IMG/VR virus record: IMGVR_UViG_3300000117_000158
Span: 1 to 29,545 of that record
Length of the DNA: 29,545 bases
Direction: 5' to 3' (one strand)
DNA from: a virus
Shown: piece by piece, positions 6,607-26,700 of the stretch
How positions within the stretch are numbered: position 1 is the stretch's first letter
Layout of the letters: each line of letters opens with the position of its first letter
The notes under the pieces: model-generated
Database searches by the model: none
What the model was told of the DNA's origin: nothing
The model's input: the letters and a program-made list of their open reading frames with translations, nothing else
Made by a program: the position numbers and the translations under genes

Positions 6607-8810
6607 GAAACTCTAAAAAGAAATCCCCGGCAAAATCTAAGAAGAAATCTAAAAAAAATCCTCTTAAAAAATACCAAACAGCGGGTGCTGGTCCAGTAGT
6701 AACTCCTACACCAGCACTTGGAAGCTCTAGCTTTTCTCCTACGGGATCATTTGGTACAGGCACTTTAGGTACATCTGGATTTTCTACAGGTAATAATACT
6801 TATGGATTTAACACTGGAAGTGTGACTGGAGGAGCCCCTTCATCTTCTGGGTACCTTTCTGGGAATTATACTCCAGGATCTACAACTTTTAATAATTTAT
6901 ACGGGGGGTACGACTCTGGGTTGGACACCACTTTGAATACAAGGACTCTTGAAGATTTTTCTGAAGACACAAATTTTGGACAAAGAAAAGGCTCAGACGC
7001 ATCTACCCTTGATGCATTAAAGCCCAAGCCTAAACAAATGACGAAAGGGGAAATAGCAACTACAGCTTTAGGCGCAGTACCAGGAACAGTTGGAGCAATA
7101 GCAAATCTTGCGTCAAGTAGTAAAATTGATGATCCCTCTAATTATTATGATAAAAAGACTAGAGCAGAACTTGAAAGGTATAATAAAAAAATAAAGGCTT
7201 CATCTGCAGCATCATCTGTTGGAGCTGGATTATTATCAACTTCAGCTGCATGGGGCCCACTTGCTTGGATTCCTGCAGCAGCGGGAGCTATTACAATGGC
7301 TGCTTCTGAAGGAGCTAAAGCTTCTTATCAAGCTAAACAAGGAAATTTAGGTAAATCATATGACGAAAGAGTAGCTGATCGAATGGCTTATAAACAACGT
7401 CAGGCAGATAAAAAACAGCAGAACTTAGATAGATATTCTAATATGAATTATTATGGTGCAGGATCTGGACTAGCTAAATATGGTGGTATGAGGGAGTATC
7501 AAGCAGGAGGTTTAAATCAAGAAGTTCCTTTAGAAGAAGAAATGAATATAATGGATCCTGCTATGGATATTCTTATGAATGGAGGTATCAGAAAGTATAT
7601 GGGAGGTGGATATCAAAAAGTAACTGGCCCTTCTCATGAAAATGGTGGAGTACCTATGGATCTTAGTGGAGATGGAGTAATAGATTCTGAATTAGAAGGA
7701 GGAGAAATAATTGAAGAAATGCCAATAATGCCTACAATGAAAAAAGGAGGAATGAAGCCTAAAAAATATATTTGGTCAGATCATCTTCAAACAGGAGGAA
7801 TGAGCTTTGCTCAAAAATTTGAAGAAATGGAAAAAGAAGGAGTAGCTCCTGAAGAAATAGAAAAGCTTAGAGTAGAACAAGAAATTGCTGCTAAAAGAGA
7901 TCCTAGTAAACTATACGCAAAATATGGTGGTATGATGAAATACAAAGGTGGAGGTCTTTGGGCTAACATCCATGCTAAAAGAAAAAGAATAGCAGGTGGT
8001 TCTGGAGAAAAGATGCGTAAGCCTGGATCTGAAGGAGCTCCTACAGCAAAAGCTTTAAGAGAATCTAAAAGAGACGGAGGACTTATGGAGTATCAAACCG
8101 GAGGACAAAGAGTTTCAAGAACAGACACCGGAAAATTTTTAGCTGAGTATGGAGCACCGTTAGCTAGTGTAGCTGGTGCAGCTGGTGATATAGGTATGAC
8201 TATGAGCCAAAAGTATACTCCTGTAGATCCTATCTCAGCAAGAGATGTACAAGCTGAAAAAGTATTTATAGATAGAGCTAAAGACAAAAGAGTAGGAGCT
8301 AGAGAATCTGAACTTATAGGTGCTAAAAGAGCTAATAGAGCTGTTATAGGAACAGGAGCAACTCAGAGAGAGAATGCTTTAAGAATGACAAGTTTAAGGG
8401 CTCAGGAAGAAGCTGCACAAAATGTTTATGACCAAAATAGACAAGCAAGTGCTACAGAGCAGCAACTTAATCAGCAAGCAAAGTTGCAAGCAGATATGGC
8501 TAATCAACGTAAAGATCTTACAACATCTGAATCTAGAAGAGCAGAATCTCTTAGAAAGCAATCGTTTGAAAACATGCGTAAGAAGTATATGGGATCTGTA
8601 ATGGGAGAGCTTGGAAATGAACTTGCTTCTGGACTGTACAAAAAAGAGTATATTAATGCAACACTTCCTGAAGGAGTTAATCAATATGCACTTAAGCCTA
8701 ATGCTATTCCGAATAAAATGAAGGAAATAAATCCTGCAACAGGCAAAAAATATACTCGTACTGAAGCTATTAATGCAGTTTTAATTCAGTATAATATAGA
8801 AAACCCTTAA
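6603..8810 (+). CDS. Putative virion cargo / ejection protein with GG-Y-GG repeats
   Basis: A 735-residue protein of no family I can name with certainty. By position (directly after the muzzle, before the polymerase) it is a candidate tail cargo/ejection protein. Domains in order: a very basic N-terminus (about 15 Lys in the first 25 residues) ending in KKYQTAG; a Gly/Ser/Thr/Tyr-rich disordered stretch (about 27-110); an Ala/Gly-rich hydrophobic segment (206-234, with AAWGPLAWIPAAAGAITMAA) that could insert in a membrane; then a region (290-501) with recurring KYGGMxxYxxGG-like motifs around 293, 327, 382, 441 and 492. Between these lies a GPSHENGG...ELEGGE motif. The C-terminal 200 residues are Gln/Arg/Glu-rich and predicted coiled coil. 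The ATG overlaps the upstream TGA. Use as a DNA-binding or packaged protein is inference from charge and context. Confidence 0.6.
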   Translation: MRNSKKKSPAKSKKKSKKNPLKKYQTAGAGPVVTPTPALGSSSFSPTGSFGTGTLGTSGFSTGNNTYGFNTGSVTGGAPSSSGYLSGNYTPGSTTFNNLYGGYDSGLDTTLNTRTLEDFSEDTNFGQRKGSDASTLDALKPKPKQMTKGEIATTALGAVPGTVGAIANLASSSKIDDPSNYYDKKTRAELERYNKKIKASSAASSVGAGLLSTSAAWGPLAWIPAAAGAITMAASEGAKASYQAKQGNLGKSYDERVADRMAYKQRQADKKQQNLDRYSNMNYYGAGSGLAKYGGMREYQAGGLNQEVPLEEEMNIMDPAMDILMNGGIRKYMGGGYQKVTGPSHENGGVPMDLSGDGVIDSELEGGEIIEEMPIMPTMKKGGMKPKKYIWSDHLQTGGMSFAQKFEEMEKEGVAPEEIEKLRVEQEIAAKRDPSKLYAKYGGMMKYKGGGLWANIHAKRKRIAGGSGEKMRKPGSEGAPTAKALRESKRDGGLMEYQTGGQRVSRTDTGKFLAEYGAPLASVAGAAGDIGMTMSQKYTPVDPISARDVQAEKVFIDRAKDKRVGARESELIGAKRANRAVIGTGATQRENALRMTSLRAQEEAAQNVYDQNRQASATEQQLNQQAKLQADMANQRKDLTTSESRRAESLRKQSFENMRKKYMGSVMGELGNELASGLYKKEYINATLPEGVNQYALKPNAIPNKMKEINPATGKKYTRTEAINAVLIQYNIENP

Positions 8811-8814
8811 CATT

Positions 8815-11031
8815 ATGGCACAAGAAAACTATAATACATTTGATTTTACTCCTTACGAATCAAACTTTGCTGAGGGCCGTAGAGAAGAATTAGCTGATAG
8901 AACAAGAAAAGAATTTGATACTAATAAAGCAGAGTATGATATTCTTAAAAGAACTATTGGCGCTCTTGAAGTAACTGATGCTAATAAATACCATATAGAT
9001 CAAATGAATGCTGACATAGATAAAACTATGCAAGGTGTTCTTGAAACTGGAAGGTACGATCTTGCAAGCTTTGCAGTGTCCGATTCTCTTACAAGGTTTA
9101 TGACAGATAATGTTGTAAAGAATGCTGTAGAAGGTTTTCAAACAAGAAAAAAAGAAAAACAGCTTATAGCTGCTAATCCTGATAAATTTCATGATTACAA
9201 TATAGTGCCTGCAAGAGTTGATTTAGACACAAGTCAAAAACTTACAGCTGCTGAATATAATGATCCTGCTAAAATGCAGAACTCAAGAGTGATGTATGAC
9301 CCCACAACACAAGCTGTTGAATATATAGATCTTAGTGAGGGACATGATGCTAAAGATGGAGCATATTTAGGAAACTCTGAAGAAATTAAAAGTCATCAAG
9401 CTAAAGCGTATGAAATGATGAAAAGTATAGCTACTGACCCTACACATTATAAATATGTAAAAGCAGTAGCAAATGCTTATGGAGTTACTGATGATATAGC
9501 TAAAAAATTCATTATGAGTGGTAAAGCTGTAACTGAGGGTAAAGTGCAAGGTTTAGCCGAAGAGTTACTACAGATGTACTCTGATACACCTGAAGGACTT
9601 CAAAGAGCTAGAGATTTAGCTAGAAAAGTAAGCTCTAATGTTGAAGAATTATCTATACCTGCTACAGGGATGAGTCCAGGGATGAGTATTCCTGTTATGA
9701 ATACTAACAGCCCAGAAGAAATTCAAGCTGCTCTTTTAAACGATCTTGTAACTGCAGGTCAAACTCAGATAGGTGTTACACAAAATCTTACTAATATCCC
9801 TCAAGACAGAGTTAGTACAACTTCAAAAACTTCAGATACAGAAGGATTAATATATAAAGATTATACTGTAGGAGATCAGTTAAATCTTATGAACGAAACT
9901 CATGCAGAACAAATAAAAAATGCTAATAGTGGTGCAGCAGGGCCATATAAATCAGATGGTTCTTTTAATACTGAAGAGAGTGAAGTTTTAGGTACAAGCA
10001 CTATTGATAGAAAAAAGCGAACAGCACTCCTTAAAGGACAAACAGCATTACTTAGAGCTAAAGAGCATTTAGCAACTGTTCAAGTAGTAGATCCTTTAAC
10101 TGGAGGGGTTATGTCTAGCACTAATCCTTTAGATATTAAAGATGAATACGAAAGAATTGCTTATATTCTTGACACTACTAAAGATATTAGGCCTCCTGGT
10201 ATAACAGATATGCAACATGTGCAAGCTTATGAAAAAAGATTGCGACAAGAAACTCATGCAGTTGTTTCTTCTAAAGGTATACCTCCAGGAAAAAGAGATG
10301 AAGCAGCTAATTTTGTACTGCAGGATATAAATAAAGGAAAACTTTATAGCCCTGGTATTCGAGGAGGTCAAGCTGTAACTTTAAATCAAATGTCTGCAGA
10401 TTTAGCTGATGGATTTTTATGGAATAGTAAATCGGATTTAGTTAAATATCAAAATCAAATTTTAGATGCTTTAGAAGTAGCCAAGGGAGGTACTTCTAAG
10501 CTAGAAAAGAATCCAATTAGTGTTGTTGTTAAGGGAGCAAGTTTAGATCCTAAATACCCTGGAGCATTTATGTTAGAAGTAACTAATACATCTGTTACAG
10601 GGCCTGAAGCTTCTCAAACTATTTATTTTGAAGGTGCTGCAAACCCTAGAAATACTTTAACTCCTGCTGCATATTTAGTAGGAGTAAGAAATGGTACATA
10701 TAGAGGTTTAGAAGTTCCATATCCTTTTGAGTACCCAGATGGAAATATTAGGTATTTAAAAGAAGATTTAGCTGCAGTTAAAGATAAAAAAGGAAATATT
10801 ATTAAAGATGCAGATGGAAATATTAAATATGAATCTGTTGTAGAATTAATAATTAAGCAGCCTGATAAGGTAGAAGTAAGTAGAACTACTTTAACTAAAT
10901 CTGAACATGCTCAGTATTTTGATCTTGCTGATAAAAGAATTTGGGATCAATACAGAAATGGAAACACTCCAAGTGCAAATCTTTTTAGATCTGATATAGA
11001 TAGCAAAGACGCGTATGACGCAGGTAAATAA
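8815..11031 (+). CDS. Unidentified virion-block protein, possible cargo protein
   Basis: A 738-residue soluble-looking protein that I do not recognise. The first ~180 residues are strongly helical and charged (EGRREELADRTRKEFDTNK, then DANKYHIDQMNADIDKTMQG). The middle continues with alternating helices. Residues about 560-690 look beta-rich (VVVKGASLDPKYPGAFMLEV and following), with a DKKGNIIKDADGNIKYE turn-rich hairpin near 660-676. No signal peptide, membrane helix or catalytic motif is apparent. The gene sits four bases after the GG-repeat protein and 27 bases before the giant polymerase gene. In crAss-like phages, proteins in this interval are packaged in the virion, so a structural or ejected role is likely, but that rests only on position. 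Codon use and AT-richness match its neighbours. Confidence 0.55.
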   Translation: MAQENYNTFDFTPYESNFAEGRREELADRTRKEFDTNKAEYDILKRTIGALEVTDANKYHIDQMNADIDKTMQGVLETGRYDLASFAVSDSLTRFMTDNVVKNAVEGFQTRKKEKQLIAANPDKFHDYNIVPARVDLDTSQKLTAAEYNDPAKMQNSRVMYDPTTQAVEYIDLSEGHDAKDGAYLGNSEEIKSHQAKAYEMMKSIATDPTHYKYVKAVANAYGVTDDIAKKFIMSGKAVTEGKVQGLAEELLQMYSDTPEGLQRARDLARKVSSNVEELSIPATGMSPGMSIPVMNTNSPEEIQAALLNDLVTAGQTQIGVTQNLTNIPQDRVSTTSKTSDTEGLIYKDYTVGDQLNLMNETHAEQIKNANSGAAGPYKSDGSFNTEESEVLGTSTIDRKKRTALLKGQTALLRAKEHLATVQVVDPLTGGVMSSTNPLDIKDEYERIAYILDTTKDIRPPGITDMQHVQAYEKRLRQETHAVVSSKGIPPGKRDEAANFVLQDINKGKLYSPGIRGGQAVTLNQMSADLADGFLWNSKSDLVKYQNQILDALEVAKGGTSKLEKNPISVVVKGASLDPKYPGAFMLEVTNTSVTGPEASQTIYFEGAANPRNTLTPAAYLVGVRNGTYRGLEVPYPFEYPDGNIRYLKEDLAAVKDKKGNIIKDADGNIKYESVVELIIKQPDKVEVSRTTLTKSEHAQYFDLADKRIWDQYRNGNTPSANLFRSDIDSKDAYDAGK

Positions 11032-11058: not shown

Positions 11059-14000
11059 ATGGATGAAGACGAACTTTTAGAAAACGAAGCTATTGAAGTA
11101 TCTCCTGAAACTGAACCTACTCCATCTCTCAGCCCTGAAGAACTTCAAAAAGAATTAGAAACTACTATTATAGGTATGGAAGCTACTACAGAGTATGCTT
11201 CTCAAGCACCTATTACAGGGTATGAAACTGTAGGAGAATATATAGATCCGGAGTTTGGTAAATACAAACAAGATTTTGAAGCTGCTAATGTTGAGCAAGC
11301 TCAAAATTTACAAGAATTAAGAGGATACACTCAAACAGTTGGAGATAAATGGGGAAATGGACTTATAAAATTTGGGGGAAAAACTCTTACTAATGTTATA
11401 GGTAGTACTATAGGGTTAGGGTACGGAATTTATTCAGGTATAAGAGATGGTGAGTTTAACTCGTTCTATAATAATGAGTTTGCAAGAGGTATAGATGACA
11501 TTAATAAGTATATGGATGGGGCTCTCCCTAACCATTACACTGTAGAAGAAAGAAATAAAGGATTGTGGGACCAGATGGGTACTGCAAACTTCTGGTCTGA
11601 CCAGGTAATGAATGGTATGAGCTTCGTAGCAGGAGCTGTACTGACTGAAATGCTTACAGCCGGTCTAGGAAGTGCTGCACTTGCAGGCACATTTTCTCGT
11701 ATGCAGAAAGCTACAAGTCTCCTTAAAAACTCTGCTAGAGCTAATAAGATAGAAGGAGTTTTAGGTAGGGGGGCCGAGTTTATGAATAGAAAAAATATAC
11801 TCGAAGGAAGTACAATTATACGGCAGCTAGCAACCGGTGCAAGCTATGAATCAGGCGTAGAAGCTAGACATTCTTACGATACTATAAAAGAAAATCTTAT
11901 TAAAGTAGCTTTAGAAAATAAAGGTCTAGACTGGTCTGCAATGTCTGAAGATGAAAAGCTTGAGGCTCTTGATGCAAACGAAAGACAAAAGATAGAGGAC
12001 GAAGCTACTACTATATCTAACGGTGTATTTGCAGGTAACTTTGCTTTAGTAGGTATGAGTAATATGCTTATGCTACCAAAACTTTATGGTAAAGGGGCAA
12101 AAAGAATAATTGGGGACTTACCTGGAATACGACAAACTTTAGGAAGAGCTTCTAAGACAGGACAAACTACAAAACAACTTGCTAAAAAATACTTAACTGA
12201 TACTGCTGCAGGAAGATTTGCTAAGAAAGTAGGAAATGCTGCACGTACAGAAACTGGTAAAAAGATAGGAGATGCAGCTAGAATTGCAGGAAAAACTTTA
12301 GGGACAGCAGGGTACGAAGGTTTTGTAGAAGAAGGTTTACAAGGAGCAATGGGAAGAGCTTCTGCAGATTATGCTCTTCTATCAGGTATTAGAGAAGATG
12401 CAGGTATGAATGACTTGTTTGACTCTGTATATGATTCTTTTACACAAGGAGCTAAGGAGTCTTACACTACTACAGAAGGACTTAAAGAAGTAGTTATAGG
12501 TGCAATGCTTGGTGGACTAGGTATGCCTGGTGTAAATCTAACAGTACAAGACGCATATAAGGATACTAAAGAAAGAAGAGAGTATATAAACAGACTTGAA
12601 AAGCTTCAAAAAGATCATCCTAGTTTAATGAACTCTATAAGAGCTCACGGAAGTTTCTTTATGAATGTATCTAAAAGAAGTAAACTTTTAGATACTGCTT
12701 TTGAAGGAGGAGATCTTGCATTAGTAAAAGATCTTGAGCATGATAATTTCTTTGATTTTGTTATGTCTAAAATGATAACAGGTCAGTACGAAGATATTGA
12801 GACTCAAAGCCAAGATATTCTTGATTCATCAGAAGAAGAATTTAGAGAGCTTGGAGGATACACTGTAGAAAGTCTTCCATCGTCAGAAGTAAATGCTCGT
12901 AAAATAGAAGTAGTAGAAGCTACAAGAAAAAGAGCTGCTAAAATAAAAGAAGCTGTAGAAAAAGTTGATGAGCATCTTAGACTAAGTGAAAGAGAAAAAG
13001 TTTTAGATTCTGAAAAACCTGGTACTATGGGGTATTTGCGCAAGCAACTTATCCATAGCTTATCTGTAATGGACAATGTTCAAGAGAGAGAAGAGGCTAT
13101 AATTAAAGAAGTAGCTAAACTTACAGGAGGTAAAATATCTTCTGTAGCATGGTCTATAGACAAAGATGGGAGAGGAAGTAAAGAAGATAGAACATCTACT
13201 ATAGATTATACTGATGCAGATGGTAACGTTAAAAGCGTAGATATAGGAGCATTTTTTGAAGATGCACCTATAAGAGCAGCTATAGCGCAAATGGATGCAA
13301 TTATAAATGCTCTTGAGGCTGGAGAAAAAACTGAAGAAGTTAAAAAGCAGCTTGATGAACTTTATGATAGAAAACTTGAACTATCTGAGTATGCAAAAGA
13401 AGTAGGAGAGGATAATATTCTTTCTGGGGAAGAGTATGAAAAAATTATAAAACCGTGGCAAGAAGTTGATCCTGACGGAGTAGTTGTAAATGGAGAGCAG
13501 GTACAGACATATTTAAAAGACCTTAGAAAACTAAGAGCTAGGAGACAGAAAGCTGTAGAGATGTATAAGCAGCTTATGGATCCTACTTACCGTCCACAAG
13601 CTATTCAAAGCATTCAAGATAAGATCAATGCAATGGATACTGATCTTACAGAGGCTGAAAAAGCTGCTAAAGAAAGGAAAGAAAAGAAAGAAAAAGAGCA
13701 AATTGAAAACTTTAAATCTAAGATTGTAGAAGCTAAAAAAGTTACACTTAGACAGATTGAAGCATTTGAAAATCAGCTAAAAGAAACACAGGCCCTTATA
13801 GATTCTTATCTAGAGGATCTAACAGAAATTGCAGATAAGCTTGAGGCGGGACAAAAAATACGTAAAAAGAATGGGCAGTTTATGTCCAAAAAGGATGCTC
13901 TAGATCTTATCAATAATATTGAAGGGACTGTTACAGAGGGAGAAACTATCCTACAAGATATAGCTAAAGACAGAGATAGTCTTATAGAGTCTTTAACTAT

Positions 14001-17000
14001 AATAGAAGAGTTTGAAGAAAATATTCCTAATCTAGATACTTACGCAGCAGAAATGTATGGTAGTGTAGAGCAAATGATGGCTACACTAGGTGTTGAAGAT
14101 GATCTATCTTCTTATAGGTTGGAAATGATGCGGGAAATTAAAGGCATTAAAGACCACCATACAGAGCACTTTAAAGCTATGGATGCTGCTGCAGAAGAAG
14201 TTAAAGAAGCTTTAGGTAGTTTATATAGAGATCGAAACTTACTACTTGCGCTACTTGATGATTTAGATAAAGTACCAGGGGACTCTTCTAAAAGTGAAAA
14301 AGAAGACTTATTAGAAGAGCTTAAACTTACAGAAGAAGCTATAGCAGCTATAAAAGAAAGGAAAAACAGACAGATATTTGAAAGAGAATCTCTTGAAAGT
14401 AAAGTTTTATCAGAAGTAGCTGCAGCTTTAGATGACTCTTATATGCGACTGTATACATTTTCAAAGATAGAGTCTATGGCAGGTACAGAGAAAGATACTT
14501 CCTCTCCTACAAAGCCAAGTAAAGACTACGACTATTCCTTTGAAGATGCATCTACATCTAAAGAAGCTACAACAGTTTTAAGAAAGCCTGATCTTACAGA
14601 TACCGGCTATTCTAAAACTATAACTAATCATAAAAAAGATTTAAGTAAGGGTATAAAAGAAGGAGCACTTGATACTTATAAAGAACTTAAAGATGTAGTA
14701 GGTCCTACAAAAGATGAGCAAAGAAAACTTGCTCATGCTATATCTGTTTTAAGATTCCATAACTGGAAAGACTCTGTTAAAATAGGAGCTAACTACAGCA
14801 AAAAAACTAAAAGAACTTATTACAGCCACTCTGTAGCTGCAATTACAGTGGATAATATCCCAGAAGAGTTAGGGGATATGCTTACTGAAAAAGATTTCTA
14901 TAGAACCTCGGAAGAAATAGAACAAAACCTTCCTAGTTCTGAAATTAAACTTGTAGTATTTCAAAATCAAAAAAGTACCTATAATAAAAAGACAGGTAAA
15001 ACCGAATTTGAAAACGTAAATGAGTTTGTAACTGTAGAAGATGAGCAAGGTAAAGGCTTAGTATTTGCTAATTCTATGATGCCTACTCTAGATATAGAGG
15101 GTAGAGAAAGATTTAGAGATGATTATAACTTAGAAGATTCTGAGAAAGAAGACATAAGGGCGGCACATGAGTCTTGGAGGAATGAGATTATTAACGAGGC
15201 TAAAAAAACCCAAGAAATATTCTTATATCCTATTAAAGAAAAGTCAATAGGAGAGCTTATACTCAATAAAGAGCCTGAACAAAACAGTGGAAAGCTTAAC
15301 GGCAAAAATCAATACAGCTCTGTTCCTTTATATATAGGTTCATCTAACGAAGGATTAAACAGTACAGTAGGTCTTCCTGTGGGAAAAGTAACTGTTGCTA
15401 CTAGACCAGGACTTGTATGGGCACAAGACACTGCAAGACAGATGCCTATTCCTATGGTAGGAAGAATGCTTTCTGAAGAAGAAGTAATGAATGCATCTCG
15501 TTTATTGCATTTGTTCTTGAAGAAACGTACAGAGTTTATAGCTGAAGAAAAAAAGAAAAAGAATCCTAATTCTTATAAGGATGCAATGAAAAACCTTCAA
15601 GCTTTTACTATAGAAGTAGAAGGCAAAAAGGTTAATCTTAAAAAAGCAATTGAAGATCTTGTATACTTCCAATCTTCTAAAAAAGAAAAAGATAATATAG
15701 ATTTTCAATTATACCACAATAAAGGATCTTTAGTATTTGGAGCAGATGAGCGAACAATTGAACTTAAGGATTTTGAAGAAGGGAGTGAAAGTGCTGTAGT
15801 AGGAGCGTTTAACGAATTTTTAGCTAAAAAATACCACAACGTAAATAAAGGTAGCCTGGGTACAAAAACCGATGGATGGGTAGAGCTTGTACTTGATGAA
15901 AATCTAGAAGTAGATACAGATAGAACAGATGTATCTTGGAAAAACTACAACGAGTATCTATTAAAAGATAGAGATATAGGGCAGTCACCTCTAATGACAA
16001 GGGCCACTCCTATCTTTATGAAAGAAACCAGAGATGGTAAGACTGTAAACTTCCGACCTTTAGATGCTCCTAGAGCTTTAGGTGGGTACATTAAATTTGA
16101 TCCTTCAGAGAAAAGAAGAGAATCTTTAGCAGGAAGAAGAGCTGAAGCACCTGCAATTAAAACTAAGTTTAAAACTAAAAGAGAGCAGGAACTAGCAGAT
16201 GCTGCAGAAGCAGGAGCACAAGCTGCTATACGGACCTTACAAAAACAAGGATTTACTCCAACAGAACCTACAGAAGATCCAAATCAAAGTCCGCCTTTAG
16301 AAGACGTAATTGAAGCCGCTAAAAAAAGAGCTAAAGACCCTGCATCTGAAGAAGAGCAGGCTATAGAAGCAGCAAAAAAGCAAGCCCAAGAATCTGAAAA
16401 GCGTGATATAGATGGTGCTTTAGATATGTTCAGTAAAGATCTAGTCTTTGAAGCTCTTGATGATAAAAACAGTGCAGGAAAACGTCTTGAAGAAAGATAC
16501 GAAGAAGGAAGCCTTGACCCTGAAGTTAAAGGTTACGTAGAAGAGTGGTTAAACTCTAGCTCTGATCCAGATGCTGTTCCTGCTGATCCCGAAGTAAAAA
16601 GGCTAAAAGGAACTATAGAAAGTCTAAGGAGTAGACTTACACGTCCTATTAAAGCAGGAAGTAGCAGTACTCATGTTTTATTTGATGCAGAAGGTAATGT
16701 TTTAAGTGTGGGGTACTTAGAAGGTACTGATGTTGTAGATGAACGCGATAATCCACGTATACCTAAAGCAAATTTTGATTTCAATATTGAGAATGCAAAA
16801 AAAGAACGAAAAAAGCTTTTAGATAAAATTGAAAATCTTCAAAGTGATATTGCTAAAAAAGAATCTGGTTCAAATCCATTTGTTGCTCCTGGAAAAGACG
16901 AAACGGATAATTTTCTTACAAGCTCTTATGAGCTTGCTTCAGATGACTACATAAAAGAAGAGTACGGAGAAGAACTAGCTCGTGTAAAAGGAATGACCTC

Positions 17001-20000
17001 TGCTGAAATAATACCTGTTATAGGTATGGTTAAGGGTATGAGTGGAGAAGGTTATGCTATGCTTAGAAAAGATGGTAAGATCTTAGTATCCAACCTTGCA
17101 CCGGGAGGAGCATTATACCATGAAACCTTCCATGATGTATCTCTTACAATGCTATCAAAAGAAGATAGAGAGAAAATATACAACATAGTAAGAAATTTAA
17201 AAGGGGAAGCAGTACCTTATCAAGAGATAGCTAAAGGAGAGCAGGATAGATCTTATAAACCTAAATCAAAGCCTCTTTCAGAGTTTACAGATAAGGAGAC
17301 AGAGGAGTGGCTTGCAGAAGAGTTTAGAAGGTATGCACTTTCTAAAGGAAAGTATAAAATAGGTAAAGACACAGTTACACCTAGAGAAGAAAACTTCTTT
17401 AAAAAGCTTTTCAACTTTATCAGGAATACATTTAGAGCTATGTTCAAACTGGACAAAGCTTTAGATACAGATTTTGATCTTCAAGGTGTAGAGGAACTTT
17501 TTACAAAGATTGAAAGTGGAGGATTTAAAAACGCTCAGAGACACTTAGAGAATCTTGAGTCTGGAGATGATGTAATGATGTCAGCTAAATTAGCTGGGGA
17601 AACTACAGCTCGATTTACAGCAGACCTTAACTCTACACTTACAGCTTATTTTGCAGATGCACTTCAAGGAGGAACTTTTACAAATGAAGCAGGAGAAGAG
17701 CAGGAAATCTCTGTAAAATTTGAAGATTTCTTAGATCTTTCTACAGGTGAAAGAGATGCACAGATCCGAATGGCATACTTTAATGCCTGGACAAACATGT
17801 ATAATGACCTTCTTGTAAAGTATAACAACTCTAAAGAAGGGTCTGAAGAACAGCAACATGCATTATCAACTTTAAAACACCTGTACGGTAATGAAGTAGA
17901 TGGTCGTGCACGAAGACTAGAGGCTGTAAATCTTCACAAACAATTCTTATCAGAGTTAGGGCTTGACTTTGAAGTAGAAGATTCAAGAGATGAAGATGAA
18001 GTAACAAGTAAAATGTTTGCAGATGTATCTGACAGAATGGAAATGTCTCCTACAGACTCTGCAAAAGGTATAGTAAAACTTCTTCTAGGTACAATTCCTA
18101 TTACAACAGGAGAAACAAACTCTACTGGATTGCGTGGTGTGTATGAACTTAAAACAGTTATTAAAACACTTCAAACAAACTTAGAAGGTACTCTTGACTT
18201 TAAGACTCAACTTGAGATTATAGATGCACTTTCAGAGGACTACGATTGGGCACCACAAATACTTGAAAGGTTAGGGGAATATCAAATAGATGGAGGTACT
18301 GGTATAGAAACAGTATTACTCCACACTGCAGTACGTAGTCAGTTTGCTAAAACTATGTATGATACTCAGTATACTATCTTACAATCAAGTGGTAGAATAG
18401 GTAATATAAATCCTAGTCTTGAAAGAAACTTAAGAAGTATCCGTGCAAGATGGGACTCTTACCTACGAGGTAAAGAGAAGACAAGTGCTCACATGAAAAT
18501 GAGCCCGGAAGGAAGTATTGTATTTGACCCTAAAGCAAAAGCAACTTTTAACAGACAAAAGCTTGATCTTGAGGAGATTAGATCTAAAGTAATTCTTAAA
18601 GGTTACGGTCTAAAGTTAGACGCACTTGAGCACATAGGAATTACATTTTCTAACAGAGAAAAGTTAGAGGATATTCTAAGTATAGATCCAGAGCGTACAC
18701 TTAAAAACTCTGACGTTACATACAAAGAAGCTTTAGAAGATGGTCTTGCATTTGTTTACGGTGACCTTATTAAAGGATCTACAACTTTAGCATCTCTATT
18801 TGATAGAGCTGAGGCTCAGAGTGTTACAAGGATGAATGCTTTAGCTAGATTAGAGCTTGAGACTACTAAGATGGATTACGAGTTTCAACACCAAAATCCT
18901 GAAGGAAAAATTGTATACAGTATTTCACTTAACAACTATCTGACAACAATAGCAAACACTGCTGTAGATAAATTAAAAGGTGTTTACTATTCTTCAAAAA
19001 AGAACCTATCTAAAAATCCATACGCATTTTCTTCGCTTACACTAAAAGCATTGGAGGAAAATCCTGACAGTAAGATAGATATAATTGTTAGAGAGGGACT
19101 TACAATAGAAGGTGCTGGAGAAACAGGAGTTAAAACATCTAAGCTTAGACCTACAGATAACCTTGTAAGTTACATGGAATCTGTAATGCAAGGTGCAATG
19201 CCTTTACTTCAAGCTGCAGATATCTCTACAAACTTTGCTATACGTTTCCCTATACAAGAGTTTAAAACTATTGACTCTGCAAAAGAAGCTTTCTTAGGAT
19301 ATCTTACAGATGAGATAATGGCTGTAAACAAAGGAAGAAAGGAAGGTATAGACGTAGATTATTTTACGGAGAGGATTAATCGTCCAGGACTAGGCTCACT
19401 AAGAATGTTTGAGTCTCTTATGTCTAAAGTAGATGGACCTACAATAGCTCGTATGACACAGCTCATGAATGATCCTAAAGCAAGCCGTATAGATATAGAG
19501 AATTTTGTAAATGAAAACTCTGATAATATTTTTGACTCTATAGATGCTAATCTCAAAGTGAACATGCAAACACTTAAAGATTATATGTTAGAGCTTAACG
19601 TTATTCATGATAATGAAGATGGTACTTATCAAGTATTAGGTCTTAACAGAGAGCATTTTGGAAAAGAGCTATCTGACAATATAAACTCAGAGCAGTTAGA
19701 TGCATTCTTAGAAGAAGTAATTACAAAGCAAACAATCTATAAGAATGAAACTTTTAAAGTATTCTTTGGAGATCCTGCATTCTATAAAGCACTATTTAAA
19801 AGAGTTAAAGGAGCTGCAGGTGTAAAAGATATTTTTAATGTAGATCCTCAACTTGATAAATGGCTTAATGAGTCTGAAAATGCTAGAGCTCAGTATGATG
19901 GTAGAAAATCTGATGGTACAGAGGATCTTGCAGTTATACAAGAACCTGAAAGAATTACTCCATACTACAACGAGTATTTAAAAACTTTATCTCCAGAGAT

Positions 20001-23000
20001 AGCAGAGGCATATAGAAAAGCTGCAGATAAAGCAGATGGTTCACTCTTACTTACTTTACCATCGTATAGAGAAATGGCTATACGAGGTAATACTTGGAGT
20101 GTAGAACAAGAAAGAGCATATGAAAATGCTATGAAAGGAGATGTTCTTACTGAAGAAGAGTACGGTAAATTTCCACCTCTTAAATTCCAGTACTTCGGAT
20201 ATCTACCTAATGCTAATGTAGATACTCAAGTACCAGGATTCTTTAAAATGTCAGCTGCACCTATCTATCCAGGTCTAGCTAAGATGGGTAACGAAACATT
20301 CCCAGGTATACTTAATATGTATGATTTCCTCACATCTAATAAGTTAGGAGGACTTATACTTCCATCTGCATTTAAGATTGGTGTACCAGGAGAACAACTG
20401 CAGCTTATGGACGGAGAAGTTATTCGTAGCTCAGAAGATCTTACAGCATCATTCTCTGAAGGACAGAAAGTAAATATAGATTACACCTTTATGGGTACAC
20501 AGTTAGAAGTACCATCTAAGTTTAAAGGTAAATCTCCTCTTGCAACACAAGCTAGAGTACAAGTACTCTCCGACCTATTTGAAGATGGACAGCTAAGAGA
20601 AGGATTTAGAGAGCTTGCTCCTACCGTAGAAAGATATAATGAAGTTTTAAATGCACTTATAGACAGAGGCTATAAAGAGCTGTTAGACGAACTTAATCTT
20701 GAAGAATCTATCGATGATCAAGGTGTAAGAAGTTACACTGTAAAAAATCAGGACTATAGTAAGTTTTTAGATGCTATTAAAGATGAAAGTGTTAGAAGAC
20801 AGATGCCTATGCAGCTTATGTCGTCTTTGGATAAACTTCAAGAAAGAAACGATGCTAAAAAGCCTATGTACTTCGACGCAGTTTCTAATAAAGGAAGGCT
20901 AGAAGGAGTACTATGGAGTCTTGCTGGCAAAAGAGTTATCCGTCAGAAGTTTGATGGGGATATGTACGTACAGCAATCTTCTCTTGGGTTTGAAACTTCT
21001 ACAATAGAAGATGTTCCAGGAGTAAGATTAAAGCAACTCAAACCTTATACTGTAGGTGATCAGTACATGGAAGTATATCTACCACACCACTTTAAAGAAA
21101 TGGTGAATAAAGATGTAGTTATTACTCAAGAAGGAATTTTTGAAACAAATGAAGACGGAGAAATAGGGGAGCTTATAGGAGGACTTGACCTTGTAAAAAT
21201 GATTGGTATACGTATACCTACAGATGGTATACACTCTATTGAAGCTATTAGAGTAAAAGGGTTTTTGCCTAGAAGTTCAGGTCCTACAGTGGTAATCCCA
21301 TCTGAAATGGTTACTAAATCAGGATCTGACTTTGATATTGATAAACTTGTATTGTATTTTCCTTCTTATCAAAAAGTAGGGAACAGACTTGTAAAAGAGA
21401 AGTTTTACGATTCTTTAGAAGAATGGTACGGTGCTCAGGATAAAGTAACTCCTGAAGAGCTAGAACAGCTAAAAGGAGACTCTCTTACACAAGCGCTTGT
21501 ATACAACTTTGCAAAAAGTGTGGGCAAACAATCTTTTGAGGATTGGAAAAAAGAAAATCCAAAAGCTACTGTATATAATGTACAAAGTAGAGGAGCTATG
21601 CAAAATGCTGTGATGGAAGATATGGTGGCTTTATTGCAAGCTAAAGGTGTAACTGATGAAGCTGCTAAACAAGAAAGGTTTGACACCTGGATGCAGCCGG
21701 TAAATACTAACGATGCTGAAGCAATAGCTTTAAAAATTAATGGAGGAACTGTAACTGATCCAAATACTAATAAGAAAACATTTGTTGAGGGAATATATAA
21801 AGGAGTAAAAAGACTTCCTGATTTAGCTACTATTACAGACTACAACTTAGACACTAACATACCTAATCTTATCAAAGTGTCTGAGGCATTTAATAAAGGT
21901 AAAACGTTAGTAGGTATAGCTGCGCTTGCATCCACCCACAATATTAAGGGACAAATGGCAGGTCTTAGATTAAATGTAAGAGATCAGTTTATAAAACTTC
22001 CTGGTAGAACTGCACCTGTACAATTAAACTTTGAAGGATTTGATCCTTTAGCAGAATCATATTCTTTAGGGAGAACTACAAATATTAACGGTACTATGCG
22101 TATTTCTGATGCTATAAGTCAGTTTGTAAACGCATCTGTAGACGTAGTTAACACACCTATATTACATATCTTAAATATCAATCCTGATAATGCTAATATG
22201 TGGATGTTCCTTCTTCGTGCAGGTGTAGATATGGAGACAATAGCAATGTTTGCAAACCAGCCTATAGTTAAAGACTACTTAAAATTAGTAGAAATAGGTC
22301 GAAGTAGGACCATGAAGGTTATGGAGAAAAGTCAGTATGACGAACAAATAGTAAAATCTCTTAGAACTAAGTATGCTAACAGTTATAAGGTCCCCGAAAC
22401 AGAATCTAAAGTAAGAGCATTCAATTCAAATATTTTAGCTGAGACTGTAGCTGAAGATGTAAGTTCTCTTTCACCGAAAGAAAAGTTTGAACAGCTTCAA
22501 ATCTTAACAGATATGATGGTGTACAATAAAGTAGGAGAAGACTTAGGTAATATTGTAACAGCACAATCATTTGATACTAAAGTACCTAAGAATAGAAATC
22601 ATCTAAGAGTAGTACTTGACATGTACGAAAGTGCTGTAAGTACTGATATGTTTGAGAACGTGGAAAAGATATCTGGGATGAACATTCCAGGATCTGTAGC
22701 TACAGAAGAATTAAGTGAAACTGATGAGTCAGAACCTGCAAACTTTATGAGGGCTATGACTTCATACAACTTTAGTATGCAGACGGTATTCAATGAAATG
22801 TTCTTGACAGAAAAAGCAGGAGAACAGTATCAAGATGATTTTAAAAGAATACAGAAAATATTTACAAATCCTGAAATCAAAGGGTTATCTGTAGATGATA
22901 GAGCACGTATTTTATCTAAGTTTGAAGATGGATTTATATCTTTTATAGTACAGAATGCGCACAAAGAAGGTATGATTCCATTAGGAGATAATATAGAGTC

Positions 23001-23766
23001 TCTTATGTTTGGAGATAATTCTATGGCGTACAAGCTTCAAAAAATACAAGATCCAAAAGGAGAACATCCACTTAGAGATAATCCATTCATACTTTCCCTT
23101 GTACCTGTACTTGCAGCTTCGAGAGAAGGCAAAGAGAAAACAAATGACTACTTACAACCTATAAGTAGAACTATGACTTCTTATGAAATGCGTACTATTT
23201 TTGATGGCTTTAATGATATTATAGCTTCAGATCCTGATTTAGCAAGAGAGTTTGTGCAAACAGCTTTACTGCAGAGTGGAGTAGGATCATCAAGGACGTC
23301 TTTCTTGAACACTATCCCTGGAAACTTTGTGCTAGAATACATGGAGGGGTTTTTAGATTCTTATCTTGACGGCAGTGGAAAACTAGAAGTAGGATCCTAT
23401 TTCGAGAAGTTCTTTATGGATAACCATGATGACAGGCAGATAGTAGCTAAAGACAATGGATTTTCTAAAAAACTATATCCTTATACATACAATGTAACAG
23501 TAGACTCAGTGCAAGCTCGTAAAAAAGCTCAAAGAGAAGGGCTTCCTTTACCTAAAATACAGAAATTGTATTATAGAAACTTTGGAGTAGACAAAGCTGG
23601 TAAAGCTGCTAATTCAGTAAAATCAGTAAGTACAGAAGTGACAGGAAGTCGTACTTTTGTAAACATGACAGATACTATACGTATCCCTAGTAATACTATA
23701 GTAGATAAATCTAGAGTTTTAAAAGAGACTGACGAAGATCCTGATATCACTTGTTACACACCTTAA
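11059..23766 (+). CDS. Giant crAss-like virion RNA polymerase fused to zincin protease and ejection region
   Basis: This 4235-residue protein carries the signature of the two-barrel (QDE-1-like) virion RNA polymerase of crAss-like phages, which is packaged in the virion and transcribes early genes after ejection. The metal-binding motif SGSDFDIDK (D3424, D3426, D3428) follows a GIRIPTDGIHS element (R3385, P3387) at the spacing of the NRAPTLHR and DFDGD elements of cellular beta-prime. KMSAAPIYPGLAK (3063-3075) may belong to the beta-like barrel. Earlier domains: hydrophobic Gly/Ala segments (about 186-211, 320-340, 478-491) suggesting membrane insertion; coiled coils (about 540-1150); a Pro/Glu/Lys linker (about 1715-1780) with a repeated IEAAKK; and a zincin motif YHETFH (H2021, E2022, H2025) followed by EEWLAEEF (2082-2089; E2087 or E2088 a possible third ligand) and a short helical FFKKLFNFIRNTFRAMF segment. 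After the barrel, FVNASVDVVNTPILHIL and FANQPIVKDYL match the general style of phage giant proteins. Polymerase identity is fairly sure; protease activity is likely but unproven. Confidence 0.85.
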   Translation: MDEDELLENEAIEVSPETEPTPSLSPEELQKELETTIIGMEATTEYASQAPITGYETVGEYIDPEFGKYKQDFEAANVEQAQNLQELRGYTQTVGDKWGNGLIKFGGKTLTNVIGSTIGLGYGIYSGIRDGEFNSFYNNEFARGIDDINKYMDGALPNHYTVEERNKGLWDQMGTANFWSDQVMNGMSFVAGAVLTEMLTAGLGSAALAGTFSRMQKATSLLKNSARANKIEGVLGRGAEFMNRKNILEGSTIIRQLATGASYESGVEARHSYDTIKENLIKVALENKGLDWSAMSEDEKLEALDANERQKIEDEATTISNGVFAGNFALVGMSNMLMLPKLYGKGAKRIIGDLPGIRQTLGRASKTGQTTKQLAKKYLTDTAAGRFAKKVGNAARTETGKKIGDAARIAGKTLGTAGYEGFVEEGLQGAMGRASADYALLSGIREDAGMNDLFDSVYDSFTQGAKESYTTTEGLKEVVIGAMLGGLGMPGVNLTVQDAYKDTKERREYINRLEKLQKDHPSLMNSIRAHGSFFMNVSKRSKLLDTAFEGGDLALVKDLEHDNFFDFVMSKMITGQYEDIETQSQDILDSSEEEFRELGGYTVESLPSSEVNARKIEVVEATRKRAAKIKEAVEKVDEHLRLSEREKVLDSEKPGTMGYLRKQLIHSLSVMDNVQEREEAIIKEVAKLTGGKISSVAWSIDKDGRGSKEDRTSTIDYTDADGNVKSVDIGAFFEDAPIRAAIAQMDAIINALEAGEKTEEVKKQLDELYDRKLELSEYAKEVGEDNILSGEEYEKIIKPWQEVDPDGVVVNGEQVQTYLKDLRKLRARRQKAVEMYKQLMDPTYRPQAIQSIQDKINAMDTDLTEAEKAAKERKEKKEKEQIENFKSKIVEAKKVTLRQIEAFENQLKETQALIDSYLEDLTEIADKLEAGQKIRKKNGQFMSKKDALDLINNIEGTVTEGETILQDIAKDRDSLIESLTIIEEFEENIPNLDTYAAEMYGSVEQMMATLGVEDDLSSYRLEMMREIKGIKDHHTEHFKAMDAAAEEVKEALGSLYRDRNLLLALLDDLDKVPGDSSKSEKEDLLEELKLTEEAIAAIKERKNRQIFERESLESKVLSEVAAALDDSYMRLYTFSKIESMAGTEKDTSSPTKPSKDYDYSFEDASTSKEATTVLRKPDLTDTGYSKTITNHKKDLSKGIKEGALDTYKELKDVVGPTKDEQRKLAHAISVLRFHNWKDSVKIGANYSKKTKRTYYSHSVAAITVDNIPEELGDMLTEKDFYRTSEEIEQNLPSSEIKLVVFQNQKSTYNKKTGKTEFENVNEFVTVEDEQGKGLVFANSMMPTLDIEGRERFRDDYNLEDSEKEDIRAAHESWRNEIINEAKKTQEIFLYPIKEKSIGELILNKEPEQNSGKLNGKNQYSSVPLYIGSSNEGLNSTVGLPVGKVTVATRPGLVWAQDTARQMPIPMVGRMLSEEEVMNASRLLHLFLKKRTEFIAEEKKKKNPNSYKDAMKNLQAFTIEVEGKKVNLKKAIEDLVYFQSSKKEKDNIDFQLYHNKGSLVFGADERTIELKDFEEGSESAVVGAFNEFLAKKYHNVNKGSLGTKTDGWVELVLDENLEVDTDRTDVSWKNYNEYLLKDRDIGQSPLMTRATPIFMKETRDGKTVNFRPLDAPRALGGYIKFDPSEKRRESLAGRRAEAPAIKTKFKTKREQELADAAEAGAQAAIRTLQKQGFTPTEPTEDPNQSPPLEDVIEAAKKRAKDPASEEEQAIEAAKKQAQESEKRDIDGALDMFSKDLVFEALDDKNSAGKRLEERYEEGSLDPEVKGYVEEWLNSSSDPDAVPADPEVKRLKGTIESLRSRLTRPIKAGSSSTHVLFDAEGNVLSVGYLEGTDVVDERDNPRIPKANFDFNIENAKKERKKLLDKIENLQSDIAKKESGSNPFVAPGKDETDNFLTSSYELASDDYIKEEYGEELARVKGMTSAEIIPVIGMVKGMSGEGYAMLRKDGKILVSNLAPGGALYHETFHDVSLTMLSKEDREKIYNIVRNLKGEAVPYQEIAKGEQDRSYKPKSKPLSEFTDKETEEWLAEEFRRYALSKGKYKIGKDTVTPREENFFKKLFNFIRNTFRAMFKLDKALDTDFDLQGVEELFTKIESGGFKNAQRHLENLESGDDVMMSAKLAGETTARFTADLNSTLTAYFADALQGGTFTNEAGEEQEISVKFEDFLDLSTGERDAQIRMAYFNAWTNMYNDLLVKYNNSKEGSEEQQHALSTLKHLYGNEVDGRARRLEAVNLHKQFLSELGLDFEVEDSRDEDEVTSKMFADVSDRMEMSPTDSAKGIVKLLLGTIPITTGETNSTGLRGVYELKTVIKTLQTNLEGTLDFKTQLEIIDALSEDYDWAPQILERLGEYQIDGGTGIETVLLHTAVRSQFAKTMYDTQYTILQSSGRIGNINPSLERNLRSIRARWDSYLRGKEKTSAHMKMSPEGSIVFDPKAKATFNRQKLDLEEIRSKVILKGYGLKLDALEHIGITFSNREKLEDILSIDPERTLKNSDVTYKEALEDGLAFVYGDLIKGSTTLASLFDRAEAQSVTRMNALARLELETTKMDYEFQHQNPEGKIVYSISLNNYLTTIANTAVDKLKGVYYSSKKNLSKNPYAFSSLTLKALEENPDSKIDIIVREGLTIEGAGETGVKTSKLRPTDNLVSYMESVMQGAMPLLQAADISTNFAIRFPIQEFKTIDSAKEAFLGYLTDEIMAVNKGRKEGIDVDYFTERINRPGLGSLRMFESLMSKVDGPTIARMTQLMNDPKASRIDIENFVNENSDNIFDSIDANLKVNMQTLKDYMLELNVIHDNEDGTYQVLGLNREHFGKELSDNINSEQLDAFLEEVITKQTIYKNETFKVFFGDPAFYKALFKRVKGAAGVKDIFNVDPQLDKWLNESENARAQYDGRKSDGTEDLAVIQEPERITPYYNEYLKTLSPEIAEAYRKAADKADGSLLLTLPSYREMAIRGNTWSVEQERAYENAMKGDVLTEEEYGKFPPLKFQYFGYLPNANVDTQVPGFFKMSAAPIYPGLAKMGNETFPGILNMYDFLTSNKLGGLILPSAFKIGVPGEQLQLMDGEVIRSSEDLTASFSEGQKVNIDYTFMGTQLEVPSKFKGKSPLATQARVQVLSDLFEDGQLREGFRELAPTVERYNEVLNALIDRGYKELLDELNLEESIDDQGVRSYTVKNQDYSKFLDAIKDESVRRQMPMQLMSSLDKLQERNDAKKPMYFDAVSNKGRLEGVLWSLAGKRVIRQKFDGDMYVQQSSLGFETSTIEDVPGVRLKQLKPYTVGDQYMEVYLPHHFKEMVNKDVVITQEGIFETNEDGEIGELIGGLDLVKMIGIRIPTDGIHSIEAIRVKGFLPRSSGPTVVIPSEMVTKSGSDFDIDKLVLYFPSYQKVGNRLVKEKFYDSLEEWYGAQDKVTPEELEQLKGDSLTQALVYNFAKSVGKQSFEDWKKENPKATVYNVQSRGAMQNAVMEDMVALLQAKGVTDEAAKQERFDTWMQPVNTNDAEAIALKINGGTVTDPNTNKKTFVEGIYKGVKRLPDLATITDYNLDTNIPNLIKVSEAFNKGKTLVGIAALASTHNIKGQMAGLRLNVRDQFIKLPGRTAPVQLNFEGFDPLAESYSLGRTTNINGTMRISDAISQFVNASVDVVNTPILHILNINPDNANMWMFLLRAGVDMETIAMFANQPIVKDYLKLVEIGRSRTMKVMEKSQYDEQIVKSLRTKYANSYKVPETESKVRAFNSNILAETVAEDVSSLSPKEKFEQLQILTDMMVYNKVGEDLGNIVTAQSFDTKVPKNRNHLRVVLDMYESAVSTDMFENVEKISGMNIPGSVATEELSETDESEPANFMRAMTSYNFSMQTVFNEMFLTEKAGEQYQDDFKRIQKIFTNPEIKGLSVDDRARILSKFEDGFISFIVQNAHKEGMIPLGDNIESLMFGDNSMAYKLQKIQDPKGEHPLRDNPFILSLVPVLAASREGKEKTNDYLQPISRTMTSYEMRTIFDGFNDIIASDPDLAREFVQTALLQSGVGSSRTSFLNTIPGNFVLEYMEGFLDSYLDGSGKLEVGSYFEKFFMDNHDDRQIVAKDNGFSKKLYPYTYNVTVDSVQARKKAQREGLPLPKIQKLYYRNFGVDKAGKAANSVKSVSTEVTGSRTFVNMTDTIRIPSNTIVDKSRVLKETDEDPDITCYTP

Positions 23767-23776
23767 ATAAATTAAA

Positions 23777-26700
23777 ATGAGTTGCAGTATAAAGCAAAGA
23801 GTTACAGACAATATGGTCGAAAAAGGCTTGATGGAATACAATCCAGATAGAAGACTATATGAACTTACTGCACCTGCATATGAATTTAATCAAGAAGCAG
23901 CTCGTATTCAAAATTCACTTGAAACTACATATGGAGTAACAAGTGATCCTGTAATATTTCTTCATAATTCAGAGACAAAAGCTTTAAGAGGGCATTCTTA
24001 TCTAAGAGACACTATGGTAAGAAATACTCTTGTAAGATTTAGAGGAAGAGAGTTAGATAGATTTCAAGAGCTTGCAGATGTATCACCTGAAAAGGCAGAA
24101 GAAGAGGTACAAGCAAGAGTAGAAGAAGCTGAAACTAATATATCTGCATCTGCTAAATCTGTAATGGAGCAGTTAGGGCTATCTTTAAAAGTTATGGATA
24201 ATCTTGTAGACAGTGAAGGAAATCCATTACAAGGTGTAGCTGCAGCTGATTTATTGAACAAAGCTATTCTTCTTACTACAGGTAATGAGTCAGAGATGAC
24301 AGAAGAACTTGCACACTTTTATGTAAATGCATTAAAAGATACAAATAGTCCTTTATACTCTTCTATGAGGAATAGGATATTTAAAACTCCTGAGTACGCA
24401 GAAGTAGTAGAAAAATATTCAGGTGTAGAGACATATGATCAAGAAGCTCTTATAGATGAAGCTATAGCTAAAGTAATAACTAACAGAGTTGGAGAAGATG
24501 CTATAGAGGATAGAGATTCTAGATGGTGGCAAAGAGCTTGGAAAGCTTTAAAGGATATGTTTAATCTACTAGAAGATCCTTATAAAAAAGGTGCATATAA
24601 TTTATTTAATTCTAACCTTTCAGAGTATAAAGACGCAGTAAACTCTACTACAAACACTACAATATTTAGATCTCTTGAAGCAGGAAAGCCTGCTGAACTT
24701 GTAGAGGAAGAGCTTATAAAAACTCACAACCGATTAAAAGTAAACAAAAAGCTTACTAGAGATATGGTTGAGGGTAAAATGAAAAATGTAGAGCTGTTTG
24801 AAGACGATCAAGGTTTGATAGCAAGATACATGTATACTGAAGACGATGGTTCAGAGAGAGTAGTATCTCGAAGGGTTACAGATCCTTCAACTATAAAATT
24901 CATGCGTAGCATGGGAGGTATAGATGCAGTTAAAATAGCTCAAAAAAGAGAAAAGCCTAAGTTTGCAGCCGAATCTGGAACTAATCTTCACACATTAGGA
25001 GAAGCTCTTATAGTGGCTGAAGGAAACAGAATGAAAGGCGCACAAGTAGTAAAACTTGATGATGAGCCTATTACATCTGTAAAGGAAGCACAGAAAGAAG
25101 CTGGTTTAAATGATTCTATGCTTAAAGAGTATAAAGAAGAAACATCTAGACTTTTACAAGGTGCTAGAGATATTCAAAAAGAAATAGACCCTGATAAGGA
25201 TTTTAGGATTTTTACAGAGGTCCGTGTATATGATAAATCTACAGATACAGGTGGTAGTATAGATATGCTATTCTTATTTTCGGATGGATCAGCAGCAATC
25301 TATGATTTTAAGTTTATTAGCCCTAGAGAAAAATTTACTACAGGCAAAGCAGGGTCTAAACAAATAGCTATAGACCCCTTTAGAGGAGGACGTAAAGAAA
25401 GTTATGACTCTCAGTTATCAATGTATAGTAAAACATTAAGAGATAATTACGGTATAACTAACGTACGACGTTCAAGAATTATTCCTGGACACATGGATTT
25501 TTCTTGGGATAGAAAAACAGGCAAGCCTACAGGTATAAATACTTTTCACATAGGAGGTGAAAAAAACAGATTTCTAAAACACATTTCTGTAGCATCTGAA
25601 TATACAGATGACTCTAAAATAAATTCTAAACTTTCTGATTTATACAATAGACTTACAGAGCTAAATCTTAAAAAGCCAAGTGCAAAAGTTAGGAGGGAAA
25701 AAGATATAATCTATGCAGCTATTCAAAGTTTTGTAGTAGAATCTAATTTTTCTCAGCTTTTAAAAGAGCTTAACGATACCGTAGATAAAGTAAAGGAAAG
25801 TGTAGATGACAGGGATCCTGACTCTGAAGGTCATATAACTTTTGAGGAGTTACAACATTCTCTTGAGGTGCTTACAATGTTTTCTAATGTCGAGGAAATA
25901 ATGGAAGACAAGAAAAAAAGTTTAAATAAAGAAGATAAAGCAAAGCTTGAAAAAGATCTTGTAATATTAGACAGGGTAGTAAGAGGAGCTGTAAATTCTA
26001 TTGAAACTGAGCTTACATACAGAACTCAAGGGTCTTCTAGGCTAGATACAACAGTACTAGCACCTAAAGTAGGTTACTTAGACAAGTTCACGGTAATGGA
26101 CCAGATAGACAATCCTATCTTTAAAGAGACTAAAAGAAGAATAAATATCACACATGATATTATAGCTCGTAGAACTGAAGAGTTACGATTAAAGTGGGAG
26201 GGGCTTAACGAAACTCTAGAAGTATGGGCTAAAAACAATGGTAAATCTTTAACTGATACTTATGAATTGTTTATTAAAGACAACGGAGAAGAGCTTAGGC
26301 TTATTCCTATGTTTAAAAAAGAGTTTTGGACTGATGTAGAGGAAAGAGTTTCCCCGGACAAAGAAGGAAGAGATGCTAATGCAGATATAGAGTGGATGAA
26401 AAAGCACTTTCAAATAAAAGAAGGTGCAAAAAAATCTTACAATGCTTTACTTAAAAAAAGAATAGCGCAATTAAAATTAGAGTACCCTGATCAAGGTCGA
26501 GGATATGACGCAGAACTGCAGTCATTTAAGGATAGATATAATGTGTTTGGGGGAAATCCTAAAGCTTGGGCATCTCAAAGGTACAGGGCTTATTTAGAGG
26601 TAAAGCCAGAGATTGCTAAGGATGCTTGGAGTAAAGAATATGCTATGCTTAATGCTCCTGGTAATGAAGCTTTAGTAGAATATTATACTGCTTGGAAAAA

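Follow-up and report, generated by a model that had tools for sequence, protein, structure and literature searches.

The sequence analysed here, the window, is the 29,545-base virus record IMGVR_UViG_3300000117_000158, a fragment that ends short of the major capsid, portal and terminase genes. Its plus strand carries, in this order, a protein at the muzzle position, two small ones at the gp45 and gp46 positions, an ORF of 4235 amino acid residues and an ORF of 1639 residues. Gene-order comparison finds in the window the block of muzzle, two small cargo proteins and giant RNA polymerase (RNAP)-related proteins, ordered as in crAss001, cr108_1 and the Suoliviridae, which agrees with the placement in a crAss-like cargo block made in a preliminary description of this DNA. 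Profile mapping places crAss001 gp47 on residues 21-1668 and 1812-2180 of the 4235-residue protein and gp50 on residues 2184-4170; phi14:2 gp67 and gp66 map in the same way, with gp67 lacking the zincin. The 4235-residue protein is therefore FIRST (gp47) joined to RNAP (gp50) and the 1639-residue protein is LAST (gp49 of crAss001, gp65 of phi14:2), the chain order being defined as FIRST-RNAP-LAST. The features are the following:

1249-6606 (+): virion structural protein at the muzzle position
6603-8810 (+): protein at the gp45 position, assigned by gene order, likely a smaller ejection protein; no cysteine
8815-11031 (+): protein at the gp46 position, assigned by gene order, likely a smaller ejection protein; no cysteine
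11059-23766 (+): fusion gene FIRST+RNAP, 4235 residues, one cysteine (residue 4232)
11302-12525 (+): Gly/Ala-rich hydrophobic N-terminal region of FIRST, residues 82-489, matching phrog_32390 (E=6.5e-41)
16201-16398 (+): linker of the preliminary description, residues 1715-1780; no gene break of a mapped relative falls inside
17119-17133 (+): HETFH, zincin motif, residues 2021-2025
17302-17307 (+): E2082-E2083, candidate third zinc ligand
17599-17610 (+): residues 2181-2184, the point at which FIRST and RNAP are separate in crAss001 and locus L035; the fusion has no cysteine here
17608-23568 (+): virion RNA polymerase part (crAss001 gp50/phi14:2 gp66), residues 2184-4170
21328-21342 (+): DFDID, residues 3424-3428, catalytic metal-binding loop within the 6VR4-homologous region
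23752-23754 (+): codon of C4232, junction cysteine, in a tail predicted to be disordered (AF2 model); invariant in 12 aligned relatives
23777-28696 (+): LAST protein (gp49/gp65-like), 1639 residues, one cysteine
23783-23785 (+): codon of C3 of LAST, junction cysteine; invariant in six diverse LAST proteins

A convergent minus-strand gene (28831-29544) ends in NTIRYIF, and similar minus-strand ORFs, with TIRYIF at the end, also come after the chain in L174 and L177.

The giant protein is encoded by a single uninterrupted ORF that starts with ATG, and its modules are those listed in the preliminary description: a hydrophobic N-terminal region, a zincin motif and a two-barrel virion RNA polymerase. 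The most hydrophobic of the Gly/Ala segments lie near residues 110-128, 183-212, 316-342 and 474-496, and the stretch at about 1700-1790 is charged, rich in Pro, Ala and Glu and linker-like, as had been described. HETFH and DFDID, both at the positions given above, are more than chance occurrences, since 16 relatives all retain the H, E and H of HExxH and DFDID falls inside the region that matches 6VR4. A Pfam scan of the giant protein gave no match above the cut-offs.

Residues 2827-3802 match the phi14:2 RNA polymerase 6VR4 (phmmer, E=4.8e-19), which is also matched by Foldseek (E=9.2e-21). The AlphaFold (AF2) model of residues 3050-4235, with a pLDDT of 67.5, aligns to 6VR4 with a Z of 19.8 over 803 residues, and QDE-1 RNAi polymerases come next in the fold comparison with a Z of about 6. 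This alignment covers the modelled region as a whole chain, and at that level the predicted two-barrel polymerase fold stands. The sequence and fold matches together uphold the polymerase reading, and support is thus obtained for the C-terminal half as a predicted phi14:2-type virion RNA polymerase; the phi14:2 gp66-homologous region has the DxDxD catalytic loop of crAss-like RNAPs. Packaging of the crAss-like RNAP in the virion and its transcription of early genes are known from relatives. In three loci, the RNAP gene is interrupted within or beside the catalytic GSD-FDID by about 290-890 bases (L005, which is cr108_1, 20409-20700; L029, 10447-11319; L030, 10417-11305), probably by introns. 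In L110 (532-19873), a crAss-like RNAP is encoded as two polypeptides, with the break about 200-280 residues upstream of DFDVD and a 165-residue ORF in the gap.

The Glu pair 2082-2083, which may supply the third zinc ligand of the zincin motif, is present in at least 90% of the relatives. The model of the zincin region has a mean pLDDT of 58, with values of about 70-87 around the motif, and gave no significant PDB match. HExxH is missing from several chains, including a fusion of 5542 residues, so the idea of a zincin in every chain was dismissed. An intact HExxH occurs in a different chain member according to lineage, and in some lineages in none: phi14:2 gp65 has an intact HEIMH, while LAST of the window shows a degenerate motif, TEELAH, at residues ~174-179, and crAss001 has PEEFAH.

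One uninterrupted gene had been regarded as unusual, and this part of the preliminary description does not hold: five named Suoliviridae RefSeq genomes have the same architecture, with single-gene FIRST+RNAP proteins of 4946 (cr118_1), 4774 (cr50_1), 4464 (cr52_1), 4491 (cr4_1) and 4272 (cr114_1) residues. The same single gene is found in cr108_1, but interrupted inside the DFDID motif. Other contigs show RNAP fused with LAST, or all three modules fused, and according to a review RNAP genes reach about 6000 residues. As a gene fusion, the 4235-residue protein is nothing out of the ordinary within its group.

The two giant proteins of the window contain only two cysteines in 5874 residues, both at the junction (C4232 of the fusion and C3 of LAST), when about 67 would be expected from the rate in the muzzle-type and 321-residue proteins of the window. 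In phi14:2, the cysteines are C1797 of gp67, which is its last residue, C3 and C2179 (of 2180) of gp66, and C3 of gp65. In crAss001, they are C2339 (of 2341) of gp47, C5, C2404 (of 2412) and one internal cysteine of gp50, and C5 of gp49, and the pair is kept although gp47 is encoded on the opposite strand. The five annotated Suoliviridae (cr118_1, cr50_1, cr52_1, cr4_1 and cr114_1) fit the same rule.

The rule was scored in 74 distinct loci, named phages included, which were found by RNAP-core homology only, with termini ignored by the scans, and whose RNAP cores have a median pairwise identity of 27%. In many of them position served to identify FIRST, and L059 and L077 were translated with the standard code. 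A cysteine was counted as terminal within the first 10 or the last 26 residues, and the same segments were used for the control with free ends, defined as the start of FIRST or of a fusion and the end of LAST or of RNAP+LAST. The C-terminal segment was widened to 26 residues after four FIRST cysteines had been seen 19-25 residues from the end (the single FIRST cysteine in each of L168, L174, L179 and L184).

Of the 224 ends next to a chain partner encoded by its own gene, 220 have a terminal cysteine, whereas random placement of the same cysteines would give about nine, and free ends have none (0 of 87). The C-terminal end of FIRST shows it in 39 of 39 proteins, the N-terminal end of RNAP in 51 of 54, the C-terminal end of RNAP in 67 of 68, and the N-terminal end of LAST in 63 of 63. 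Three of the four misses (L058, L063 and L080) come down to the start-site call, a later in-frame Met lying directly ahead of a cysteine; in the fourth (L132), the cysteine lies 26 residues from the end. Two apparent exceptions, L060 and L081, give full-length proteins with terminal cysteines when TAG is read as a residue. Both TGT and TGC are used at the junction cysteines, and seventy other ORFs from the same loci show no enrichment of terminal cysteines. The cysteine content of the chain is 0.22%, compared with 0.87% in control ORFs; however, the string is not always cysteine-clean, the RNAP protein having 5-40 cysteines in many loci. In L026, FIRST was found by homology far from RNAP and ends in ECL, matching the prediction of the rule. 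A search for FIRST by homology in eight further records gave a match in two, both ending beside a cysteine, and no match in six, which does not imply that FIRST is missing there.

Several further observations concern the same proteins. FIRST C-terminal ends share a short motif ahead of the cysteine, and LAST N-terminal ends often show CxIxP or CPN, which are possible docking elements; LAST proteins are strongly diverged in alignment. The smaller ejection-type proteins are also free of cysteine, both in the window (the two at 6603-11031, by gene position) and in N4 (gp51 and gp52; L190, 17127-19524), which suggests a general avoidance of cysteine in ejected proteins. A scan of genome contigs gave one fragment, in a Bacilli MAG, that says little about the host.

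The main finding is, at the level of sequence, a cysteine code in crAss-like ejection proteins that tracks gene boundaries. This terminal-cysteine pattern is absent from the crAss-like papers searched for cysteine or disulfide and from wider literature searches, and an earlier mention in the primary polymerase papers is possible.

The dependence on gene boundaries was examined on a tree of the RNAP core, where the FIRST-RNAP fusion state changes at least seven times and the RNAP-LAST state at least five. In the independent contrasts, the fused state lacks the junction cysteine pair in 5 of 5 cases for FIRST+RNAP (p 0.06) and 4 of 4 for RNAP+LAST (p 0.13), which pools to 9 of 9 among loci that are related, each set singly falling short of 0.05. 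All three modules form one complete ORF of 5542 residues in L104, with zero cysteines, and L177 is a 5'-open fragment (at least 3998 residues) of another full fusion, also with zero cysteines. RNAP+LAST is a single cysteine-free chain of 3668 residues in L186 (5'-open), and its sister L110 (99% SH-aLRT) has the same stretch in three proteins with 35, 33 and 32% identity, broken inside the polymerase and before LAST, with a cysteine pair at both breaks. In the chain of the window, cysteines are found at the junction ends, none at the free ends and none at the fused junction. This pattern suggests selection for keeping the parts joined.

We propose that the terminal cysteines join FIRST, RNAP and LAST end to end through what is most probably a disulfide, and that gene fusion replaces the cysteine pair with a peptide bond, a reading to which we assign a probability of roughly three in four. 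End-to-end coupling best explains why cysteines are kept at the meeting points of separate chain members but not at fused junctions, set against the cysteine-free chains of N4-like phages. The virion polymerases of the latter are one chain with no cysteine, which has been attributed to passage through the tail and periplasm, and a beads-on-a-string architecture has been reported for the N4 enzyme. The simplest chemistry would be a disulfide, given that crAss001 virions have disulfides elsewhere (in tail and portal-vertex proteins), that one cysteine per end makes no ordinary metal site, and that the crAss001 subunits run separately on a reducing gel. In the published crAss001 cryo-EM maps, gp47, gp49 and gp50 are not resolved.

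The bond, its timing, the pulling and the release we infer as follows. FIRST, RNAP and LAST would act as one linear chain in that order. Where the genes are separate, a disulfide arising in the virion or during transit would link the cysteine at the C-terminal end of the upstream member to that at the N-terminal end of its downstream neighbour; fused neighbours would be joined by the peptide bond and need no pair. A chain interior poor in cysteine would leave mainly the correct ends to pair while the unfolded proteins cross the tail and the periplasm. The phage of the window would have one such coupling, between C4232 in the fusion and C3 in LAST. The pull of the member ahead would deliver the polymerase and its partners in a fixed order and ratio, and the reducing cytoplasm of the host would then break the bond and free the parts. 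The host cytoplasm is reducing and many of the hosts are anaerobes, which makes the timing of bond formation hard to place.

In a wider form of this proposal, the crAss-like phages, together with two or more groups of greater distance, would form a class that injects the polymerase complex as a train of redox-coupled proteins, held by single terminal disulfides, drawn as one string through tail and envelope in fixed order and uncoupled by reduction in the cytoplasm; the odds that this is so seem to us even. On that reading gene fusion and gene splitting would be interchangeable, since each new end gains a cysteine.

The rule by itself shows just that a cysteine tracks separately encoded junctions, and the terminal cysteines may instead lie in short docking tails that pair neighbours at assembly, their thiols being used for metal sharing, for a mixed disulfide with a third protein or for ligation. 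The recurring motif before the FIRST cysteine and the CxIxP or CPN of LAST are what docking elements might look like. However, an ordinary metal site needs more ligands than one cysteine per end can supply, the N-terminal cysteine lies in most cases at residue 3-6 while native ligation would need the first residue, and Pfam gave no intein match among the three proteins scanned, all of the window phage. We consider this explanation unlikely.

The preliminary description had suggested that the chain may be cut near the linker, and an ordinary giant fusion cleaved there by the zincin into an ejection part and a polymerase would account for the HExxH and downstream Glu pair kept in many relatives as well as for the linker-like stretch. 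The gene breaks of mapped split relatives lie elsewhere, at about 1937/1941 (L106), 2180/2184 (crAss001 and L035) and 3230 (L110), none of them inside residues 1715-1780. Furthermore, crAss001, whose zincin is in gp47, shows virion bands of about 150 and 270 kDa on a reducing gel, which are the sizes of separate full-length subunits. Cleavage is also at odds with the chains that lack HExxH and leaves the cysteines unexplained, so that a cut at the linker is not borne out and this explanation is improbable. That the pattern is a by-product, of cysteines purged from ejected proteins and tolerated at floppy ends or of a nucleotide signal at gene junctions, would fit the depletion of the chain and the cysteine-free N4-like polymerases, but it is largely refuted already, and very improbable, by the contrast between free and junction ends, by persistence of the pattern for genes that are distant or on opposite strands, and by the use of both cysteine codons.

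The question of how very large proteins leave the capsid through a narrow tail, ordered and correctly proportioned, concerns both N4 and the crAss-like phages, which dominate among human-gut viruses. The cysteine rule gives the order of the pieces, and it predicts partners, gene starts and even the genetic code from sequence.

Among known systems, phi14:2 gp67-gp66-gp65 has the same modules in the same order as the window, an RNAP matched by sequence and fold and the same cysteine placement, but encodes them in three genes instead of two, and its HExxH is in gp65 instead of gp67. The Suoliviridae cr118_1, cr50_1, cr52_1, cr4_1 and cr114_1 share FIRST+RNAP in one gene with HEA(F/W)H and DFDID, a cysteine placed 1-3 residues before the C-terminus of the giant and a LAST with an N-terminal cysteine; they differ in being human-gut phages with very divergent giants that have a few extra internal cysteines. 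In crAss001, gp47, gp49 and gp50, all detected in virions, are homologous modules with terminal cysteines, and gp47 ends just past the zincin, although there are three genes and gp47 is on the opposite strand.

The same pattern is seen in the Lightbulbvirus phages phi17:2 and phi4:1 (1957 residues ending in C; 517 residues with C4 and C516; 1914 residues with C3) and in Leptolyngbya phage Lbo-JY46 (1552 residues ending in C, then 2748 residues with C4). Their giants differ from those of the window in that no DFDID was seen, and the host of Lbo-JY46 is cyanobacterial. The pattern is also present in csAssE-Sib, but the annotated start of its third protein has no cysteine, possibly through an intron or a wrong start. 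Scans with the phi17:2 and Leptolyngbya phage proteins returned phi4:1 only or nothing, so the breadth beyond crAss-like phages rests on few genomes.

N4 gp50 (Schitoviridae) is likewise a giant single chain that combines an N-terminal domain, an RNAP and a domain with HExxH and is ejected via the tail, and it has 0 cysteines in 3500 residues, like the one-gene chains of crAss-like phages. Its polymerase has the T7-type fold, its zincin follows the polymerase, unlike in the window, and cysteine ends are lacking in gp51 and gp52, its partners in ejection. N4-like phages are thus known for one cysteine-free polypeptide, and the rule suggests that crAss-like phages use a comparable string in pieces, with a cysteine pair at each cut.
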